Source of the DNA: Nitrospinae bacterium RIFCSPLOWO2_12_FULL_45_22
Lineage (GTDB): Bacteria; 2-12-FULL-45-22
Reading direction: 5' to 3'
Assembly (NCBI GenBank): GCA_001803565.1
Contig: MHDQ01000214.1
Location: 1-5,555 of the forward strand
DNA length: 5,555 nt
Position 1 is the first letter of the stretch. Every line of letters starts with the position of its first letter. Positions 220 through 3,072 of the stretch are shown piece by piece. Below the pieces are notes generated by a model that was not told the DNA's origin, did no database searches, and saw only the letters and a list, made by a program, of their open reading frames with translations. The position numbers and the translations under genes are program-made.

Positions 220-3072
220 ATGGCACCGATCTCAGGGAATATTATTCAGGTAAAGGGGGCCCGGCAGAACAATTTAAAGAATATCTCCTTTGATCTTCCC
301 CTGAACGAAATCACCGTCATAACCGGTGTGAGTGGCTCTGGCAAGTCGAGCCTGGCCTTTGATACCCTTTATGCTGAGGGGCAGAGGCGGTATGTAGAGA
401 GTTTTTCCGCTTATGCCCGGCAATTTCTGGAGCGTATGAGCCGGCCCCTGGTAGATGAAATTCATGGTATCCCACCCGCTATTGCCATTGACCAGACTAA
501 TCCTATCAAGAATGCCCGCTCCACAGTAGGCACCATAACAGAAATAAGCGATTATCTCAAGCTCCTCTATGCCAAGCTAGGGCGGCTGTTCTGCCGGGGC
601 TGTGGACAGGAGGTTTATAAAGACACCCCGGAAACCATATGGGATAAGCTATCTGACTCCCTCACAGGCCAGCAGATTATTATCACTTTTCCCGCACCCC
701 AGGAGAAGGAATTATTGCCTTCCTGGAGGAGGTTAGGTTTTACCCGGGCCCTTTGCCGAGGCATCACAATTGAGTTAGAGAGCGGGTCAGAAGACCCGCT
801 CCTACCCCCGGGTAGTGTTGGGTTTTCTGACCCAGCAAAAAAGGGAGATCCATATATGTTTGATTTAACGGAGGACAACTTACAGGTACTAAAGACTCAG
901 GGCCAGGCCGATATTGATATTGTAGTGGACAAGGTTATCTTTACCAGACAGGAGCGGGGCCGGCTAATAGATTCCTTAGAGCAGGCCCTTAAGTTTGGCC
1001 AGGGGCACTTAACCATCCACGGACCAAACTCGGCCCTGCTTAAATTCAGCAGCATCTATCACTGCCCTAGGTGCGACATTAGATATAAGGAACCAGAGCC
1101 CAACCTCTTCTCTTTTAACAGTCCGTTAGGGGCATGTAGCCACTGTAGGGGATTTGGCCGCACCATTGACTTTGACTTGAACCTGGTCATTCCCGACCCC
1201 TCTAAGCCCCTAAAAGATAAGCCTATTAAGCCCTGGAATACCCCGGCCTATATCATGGCCTATGATGACCTGAAGAAGTTCTGCCACCGGCACAAGATAT
1301 TCTGGCATACCCCCTTCAAGGACTTGCCCGGGGAACAGAAACAGCTCATTATTAATGGGACTACCGATTTTTATGGTATTAAAGGCTTCTTCGATTGGCT
1401 AGAGTCCCGAACTTATAAGACCCATGTCCGGGTATTCCTATCCAAATATCGCGGCTACTTCAAATGCCCCAACTGTCAGGGAACCCGCTTCAAGCCAGAG
1501 GCCCTCTTATTCTGGATCAATGGTAAGAATATTGCCCAGATTAATGCCCTAAATATCTCTGATGCCCTGGAATTCTTTAACCATCTTCCCCTTAGCCCAT
1601 GGGAATATCAGGTTGCCCGCCTTATCCTGGAGGAGATCAGGGGACGATTAACCTACTTAAAGGAAGTGGGTCTCGATTATCTTACCCTGGATCGTCAGTC
1701 CCGGACGTTATCAGGCGGTGAGGTAGAGCGGGTAAACTTAACCACCGCCCTGGGTTCTTCTCTGGTCAATACGCTATATATCCTGGATGAGCCCAGCATA
1801 GGACTCCATCCCCGCGACAGCCACCGATTAATAAAGATATTACACCGCCTGAAGAGGAACAAAAACACTATTGTAGTAGTAGAGCATGACCCAGAGATAA
1901 TTGCACAGGGCGATAATATCCTGGACTTAGGCCCGGGCCCTGGTGAGCAGGGGGGTCAGCTTATATTTTTCGGTAAATATAAAGAGTTACTAAAAGAAAA
2001 AAGGTCTTTAACCGGGCAATACCTGGCCCACAGGCAGACTATTCCTTACCCTGAGACTCGTCGGCAGCCCGGTAAGGCCGGCTGGTTAACCATCCTGGGG
2101 GCGCAAGAGAATAATCTAAAGAATATTGATATACGTATCCCTTTAGGCCTGACGGTCTGTATTACCGGGGTATCGGGCTCGGGCAAGAGCACCCTGGTGG
2201 AACAGATCCTCTACTTTGGCTATAAGAAACTCAGGGGAGAGGGGATAGGTATACCGGGTTCCTGTAAGGCTATTGAGGGTTGGGAGCAGATTAAAGATAT
2301 TATCCTGGTAGATCAGGCCCCTATTGGCCGTACCCCCCGCTCTAATCCAGTAACTTATGTTAAGGCCTATGACCATATCCGGCAACTCCTGGCCCAGATG
2401 CTAGCGTCCCAGGAGCGGGGTTATACGGCCAGTACCTTCTCCTTCAATGTTGGCAATGGCCGCTGCCCGCAGTGTCGCGGTGAGGGTTATGAGAAGGTAG
2501 AGATGCAATTCCTGTCTGATATATACATTACCTGCCCGGAATGCCAGGGGACGCGATATAAAAAAGAGGTCCTGGAGGTCTATTATCGCGGGAAAAATAT
2601 CTGGGATATCCTGAACCTTACGATAAACGAAGCCATGGATTTCTTTGCCGACTCGCCCCAGATAGTCCAACCCCTGGCGGTCTTACAGGATGTGGGCCTG
2701 GGCTACTTAAAGCTGGGACAGCCTATCAATACCCTTTCGGGCGGAGAATCTCAGCGCCTGAAGCTCGCCTACTACTCAGGGCGCCCGGCTGATGGCCATC
2801 ATCTATACATTTTTGATGAGCCTACTACCGGCTTGCATCTCCACGATATCAAGGTACTACTCCGGGCCTTCCAACGCCTAGTGGATCGAGGGGCTTCCCT
2901 GGTAATTATTGAACATAACATGGAGGTGGTAAAGTGCGCTGATTACGTCATTGATCTAGGGCCTGAAGGGGGTGAGCAAGGCGGTTATGTGGTAGTAGCC
3001 GGCACGCCCGAGGAGATAGCCCAGTGCCCCCATTCATATACCGGTAAGTTTTTGCAGAAATATCTTAAGAAG
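220..3072 (+). other. UvrA module 1 (residues ~1-951): complete UvrA with a degenerate UvrB-binding region
   Basis: The order matches a stand-alone UvrA. First come NBD-I Walker A (36-44) and the conserved YARQF segment (65-69). A zinc-type CxxC at C125/C128 would pair with C416/C419. A second zinc site is C282/C285 with C306/C309 around FSFN. The NBD-I signature LSGGEVERV (497-505) and Walker B YILDEPS (520-526) follow. NBD-II has Walker A (650-658), the VDQAPIGRTPRS-type segment, the third zinc site (C749/C752, C772/C775), signature LSGGESQR (839-846) and IFDEPTTGLH (864-873). Departures from consensus are the UvrB-binding region (~150-250), which lacks the usual basic RxKKGxHK segment and contains a palindromic insert, and GNGRC (746-749) where UvrA normally has GGRC after a basic residue. 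All catalytic motifs look intact, so this half is probably an active ATPase. Weakened UvrB contact is an inference. Confidence 0.9.

Follow-up and report, generated by a model that had tools for sequence, protein, structure and literature searches.

The uvrA locus and its palindromic element

The window, by which we mean the whole stretch of 5,555 nucleotides analysed here, is an entire contig (C214) of the Nitrospinae bacterium RIFCSPLOWO2_12_FULL_45_22 assembly (G000), which comprises 3.67 Mb in 321 contigs and is approximately 85% complete. It carries a uvrA coding sequence that runs off the contig end (Table 1). The NCBIfam UvrA equivalog models exceeded their cut-offs for this ORF and the UvrA_inter domain was found twice, indicating a fused double UvrA of at least 1778 residues. 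Under the fused-UvrA model PRK00635 the ORF scored below that model's cut-off. Long UvrA ORFs of comparable size are present in genomes G009, G029 and G040, and no UvrA relatives were found in viral contigs.

Table 1 Features of the uvrA element in the window
Feature	Position	Strand	Basis
uvrA coding sequence, fused double UvrA, off contig end	220..5555	+	1778-aa open ORF; NCBIfam; UvrA_inter twice
Near-direct repeat, left copy ATTGAGTTA	769..777	+	7/9 identical to 859-867
REP unit 1, GGGTAG + GAGCGGGTC TTCT GACCCGCTC	777..807	-	R1 covariance model, 42.5 bits, E 8.1e-6
Inferred insert, 90 bp, residues 187-216, ESGSEDPLLPPGSVGFSDPAKKGDPYMFDL	778..867	+	Absent in aligned UvrAs; removal restores alignment
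Three abutting hairpins (780-801, 802-815, 816-837)	780..837	.	DNA minimum-energy fold
REP unit 2, GGGTAG + TGTTGGGTT TTCT GACCCAGCA	810..840	+	R1 covariance model, 44 bits, E 3.9e-6
Right-end module AAAAGGGAGATCCATATATGTTTGATTT, common to second REP family	842..869	+	Matrix from other family only
Near-direct repeat, right copy TTTGATTTA	859..867	+	Start exactly 90 bp from left-copy start

An initial annotation of this DNA had described three abutting hairpins translated in frame within module 1 of uvrA, and both parts of that description were borne out. The hairpins were recovered by the DNA minimum-energy fold, and the RNA fold of 770-850 reached -39.2 kcal/mol against a shuffled mean of -21.7 (z -5.2), a value that none of 200 shuffles equalled. 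Positions 780-837 are read in frame within the 1778-aa open ORF. The arms are complementary at 79% of positions between 784-807 and 810-833, and at 100% between 780-788 and 793-801. The outer hairpins correspond to two REP units arranged head-to-head, with one hairpin per strand, while the central third hairpin consists of the paired GTAG feet of the two units (CTACCC/GGGTAG).

The source genome was searched for further copies, and all copy counts from it are lower bounds. The window sequence returned eight places at E<=0.01 (uvrA itself counted), two of the others near full length, and a consensus search returned at least 13 loci on separate contigs, so the segment that had been suspected of being a repeat is indeed multi-copy. 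A covariance model of the unit matched 17 times at E<=0.02, twice within uvrA, and seven head-to-head dimers were found in this genome. Weaker covariance matches on C145, C302, C45 (at 1760) and C127 were rejected as other hairpins. In the consensus unit, GGRTAG precedes a 9-bp stem with a TCCT loop. Across 16 units T4, A5 and G6 do not vary and the base before TAG is mostly G, with A in five, giving a GTAG or ATAG tag. The 9-bp stem, closed by a 4-nt loop, is paired in 93.8% of cells over the 16 units, and its covariation score of 0.534 (25 cells altered on both sides) compares with 0.273 for shuffled stems, none of which reached it.

The uvrA element is a GTAG-type REP head-to-head dimer and belongs to a dispersed repeat family, which displays the unpaired tag at the hairpin foot, a stem within 5-13 bp and a loop within 2-20 nt with conserved pairing, the dispersed multi-copy distribution and the mostly head-to-head dimers of GTAG REPs. 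An exact-pattern scan of 84,980 species yielded five matches in unrelated taxa; because none is surrounded by GTAG or a hairpin, they were set aside as chance matches. Searches for the element in IMG/VR and in Rfam returned no match and nothing relevant, respectively.

Extent of the insert

Relatives were compared at the turn that holds the element, using the 17 sequences that align sensibly (L021 and L022, read in a wrong frame, are uninformative here and were left out). One of the 17 (L016, from G033) has a different insert in the same place, one (L017) is approximately 5 residues longer, and the rest have none. The turn of other UvrAs resembles GFVRVRVDGEIYLLEE, while the UvrA in the window reads GFTRALCRGITIEL-ESGSEDPLLPPGSVGFSDPAKKGDPYMFDL-TEDN. 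When 30 residues were deleted, two broken phmmer fragments joined into a single unbroken alignment with the solved UvrAs 2r6f and 3pih. In a deletion-length scan the profile score peaked at 123-125 bits for 30-32 residues, compared with 111 bits at 19 residues. The right end was examined with a matrix trained solely on the right ends of the second REP family (GCAGGCTAAAGCCTGC, 20 of 26 copies used), which put 842-869 among the 11 best-scoring of 194,546 background positions.

Taken together, the match at 842-869, the 90-bp spacing of the repeats and the alignments extend the element beyond its hairpins to approximately 867. The initial annotation was thus correct that an insert is present, but its size of 58 bp and 19 residues gives way to approximately 90 bp (778-867) and 30 residues. 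Nearly all compared UvrAs lack the insert. With a multi-copy family and relatives without it, the segment is neither single-copy nor the counterpart of a homologous, non-palindromic peptide, the outcome that had been named as counting against a repeat. We infer both the insertion event, from distant UvrAs of approximately 47% identity or less, and the exact ends of the insert. The near-direct repeats, which match at 7/9 positions, may not be a target duplication: copies of the sibling family share a conserved left end, and the left flank perhaps belongs to the element itself.

The insert in the L016 UvrA (2001-2181, GREVGVLKPEGQEVGVPRVAGKPRGREV) is unrelated, locally repetitive and GC-rich, and suggests that this turn is a recurrent insertion site. 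It also indicates that the turn is able to expand locally, as would be expected if the element were a chance palindrome or locally expanded uvrA sequence and no dispersed repeat. The probability of that explanation is practically nil, given the 13 genomic loci, the covarying stems, the fold z-score of -5.2 and a dimer architecture common to a second genome (G188, see below), and we rejected the chance palindrome on the fold, the multi-copy family and the stem covariation.

Reading frame, sibling family and the associated transposase

At four of the 13 loci the element is intragenic and in frame, namely in uvrA, a SAM-hydrolase-family gene (C189), a GspH-like pseudopilin gene (C207) and a gene for a REP-associated tyrosine transposase, or RAYT (C141); the other loci are intergenic or at gene starts. 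In the SAM hydrolase the element corresponds to a 19-residue gap in the alignment against 2zbu. All four hosts use one frame (G/D-S-x-G-x-S/P-D-P/L), and this is the sole frame in which the REP-dimer consensus is open over its full length. A sibling GCAGGC REP family, in contrast, has no frame of the six that stays open, and no ORF runs across any of its 26 copies. The exact probability that all four intragenic cases fall among the 13 loci is 0.009. The copy between pyrH and frr (L076 5244-5273, corresponding to C274:7728-7757) is truncated and appears to supply the pyrH stop codon.

Some ends are shared between repeats of this genome. The sibling family, a second GTAG-REP family (GTAGTCGCAGGCTTTAGCCTGCG), has conserved ends TTAAATTAA and AAAATGAAAATTCCTATACNATYAARTTA (26 loci, L142-L167). 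The right-end motif, AAAWGRAAATTCCTATAC, is also found after other repeats (TCTGCGTTCATCTGTGTCC; CGTCGGGTACCCACGGAGTGGGTGGTGCGTCC) and in places by itself (L114-L139), as a modular end. We tentatively put forward, while doubting it on balance, that the mobile unit is larger than the REP dimer: an element of approximately 90 bp, bounded by ARTTA on the left and AAAWGRAAATTCCTATACNATYAARTTA on the right, might serve two or more GTAG-REP families of this genome that are unrelated to each other. The family with a stop-free frame would then enter genes (uvrA, and pcrA/uvrD in a second lineage whose copies lack these ends) and the family closed in all frames would stay out.

The C141 protein matched NCBIfam NF047646 (REP-associated tyrosine transposase) at 102.5 bits, against a cut-off of 80, and has an HIH motif. 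REPs are located at 2002, 2224 and 2600 on this contig, two in frame inside the RAYT gene and one inverted downstream, so that the gene is bordered by REPs of the same family as in a REPtron. Among the 290 genomes searched, a close RAYT was found beyond the source only in G188 (70-85% amino acid identity, internally deleted). The same genome has 11 pairs of the same REP unit, 9 of them head-to-head. A control scan of the 290 genomes with the unit gave matches in one other genome, G121, and these were rejected as single GGCGGGTC REPs of a different family. In G188 a dimer is translated in frame in the linker preceding the C-terminal domain of a PcrA/UvrD helicase, and further dimers are read in frame within a metallophosphoesterase ORF and within a nuoM C-terminal extension.

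From this co-occurrence, the C141 RAYT most likely moves the REP family, and the co-distribution supports, short of proof, both this role and a horizontal transfer of the RAYT and the repeat. Against this role, the source genome has other Y1-type genes besides the C141 RAYT, and the G188 RAYT is internally deleted. One of them, on C49 (L081), is a second Y1 transposase gene with its own GTAG hairpins nearby (GTAGGGTAGGCATTGCCTACC), and is probably part of a separate REPtron.

Defined ends, near-direct repeats at a 90-bp spacing and a right end common to another family are also what might be seen in a MITE moved by a classical DDE transposase, bounded by terminal inverted repeats and a duplicated target site. 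Its ends, however, TTAGAG.. and ..CCTATAC, have no inverted-repeat relation to each other. No terminal inverted repeats of 15-30 bp link 769-779 with 841-867 at the outer ends; what is palindromic is the internal REP pair. The core consists of two GTAG-REP units that are also found in the RAYT gene, and the AT-rich ends are absent from the G188 copies. We consider a classical MITE very unlikely. Of the kind proposed in the initial annotation, the dispersed palindromic repeat of REP type stands, while the likeness to Rickettsia palindromic elements is better replaced by a GTAG-REP head-to-head dimer with a RAYT.

Proposed origin, effect on UvrA and relation to known systems

We are highly confident in the account as a whole, in which a non-autonomous GTAG REP dimer, likely mobilised by a RAYT, inserted in frame into uvrA and now probably forms a passive loop. 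A multi-copy family, stem covariation, an in-frame extra peptide, absence in relatives and co-occurrence with a RAYT were all observed. In the proposed sequence of events, a GTAG-type REP dimer with AT-rich ends (approximately 90 bp) would have inserted into the turn between two strands of the UvrB-interaction domain, mobilised most likely by the C141 RAYT, whose gene bears the same REPs. It would have been retained because it is a multiple of three bases, has one stop-free forward frame and landed in a turn. The encoded Gly/Ser/Pro/Asp-rich peptide would then act as a flexible loop.

A tolerated, passive loop is the simplest reading of the REP-encoded peptide, which is probably neutral. AlphaFold models of the UvrB-interaction region from the two modules in the window had a pLDDT of 46, too low to place the loop reliably, with residues ~179-211 unstructured between two strands. 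The initial annotation had seen in the insert a sign of relaxed constraint on the UvrB-binding region, a view the data do not uphold: they show one turn that tolerates an insert. E. coli UvrA lacking residues 131-248 is inactive in repair (PMC3025350), so the region is not dispensable.

The peptide could instead be functional and selected, altering the contact of UvrA with UvrB or Mfd and hence repair or the mutation rate, an effect that has been speculated on for REPs located in repair genes. Such a role would suit its location in the UvrB-interaction domain and the recurrence of REPs in uvrA, uvrB, uvrD and recB of several phyla (PMC3733652), seen again here in uvrA and the G188 pcrA/uvrD. 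The same peptide, however, occurs in the unrelated SAM hydrolase, pseudopilin and RAYT, and repair genes are a minority among the hosts, which makes selection for such a role unlikely and leaves the passive loop as our preferred reading.

Among known systems, the REPIN joins two inverted REPs into a single palindrome and has a cognate RAYT, and REPINs are commonly intergenic and of higher copy number. The present family shares the paired inverted REPs and a likely cognate RAYT but is low in copy number and partly intragenic. With the GTAG REPs of Di Nocera et al. (2013, PMC3733652) it shares a GTAG outside the stem, a short stem with a loop, head-to-head dimers, in-frame copies and the association with a RAYT. 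It differs in being a new sequence family from another lineage, of low copy number (at least 13 loci), with AT-rich outer ends that another REP family in its genome also has. In that study, GTAG REP dimers in frame within ORFs code for 20-30 amino acids, and the uvrA genes of Thioalkalivibrio and Opitutus terrae were reported to contain REP dimers; the present case therefore extends a known phenomenon to a new family and a new host. As in REPtron/RAYT (TnpA-REP) systems, a RAYT with an HUH motif is flanked by inverted REPs of the same family (PMC8266576, PMC3733652). REP overlaps at RAYT gene ends were already known (PMC3733652), but here the REPs lie inside the coding sequence of the predicted RAYT and would be translated. 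Rickettsia palindromic elements are likewise palindromic repeats translated in frame in many genes, but RPE-4 and RPE-6 are of the CGTC type without transposase association (PMC3733652), whereas the tag here is GTAG.

These results bring a further, independent lineage into the unusual record of nucleotide-excision-repair genes with translated REP dimers. They also provide a compact system, with 13 loci, a likely cognate RAYT, two distant hosts and a closed-frame sibling family as a control, in which to ask whether intragenic REPs are tolerated accidents or are favoured by frame compatibility. A mobile palindrome is able to give a conserved repair ATPase approximately 30 new residues while its ORF stays open.
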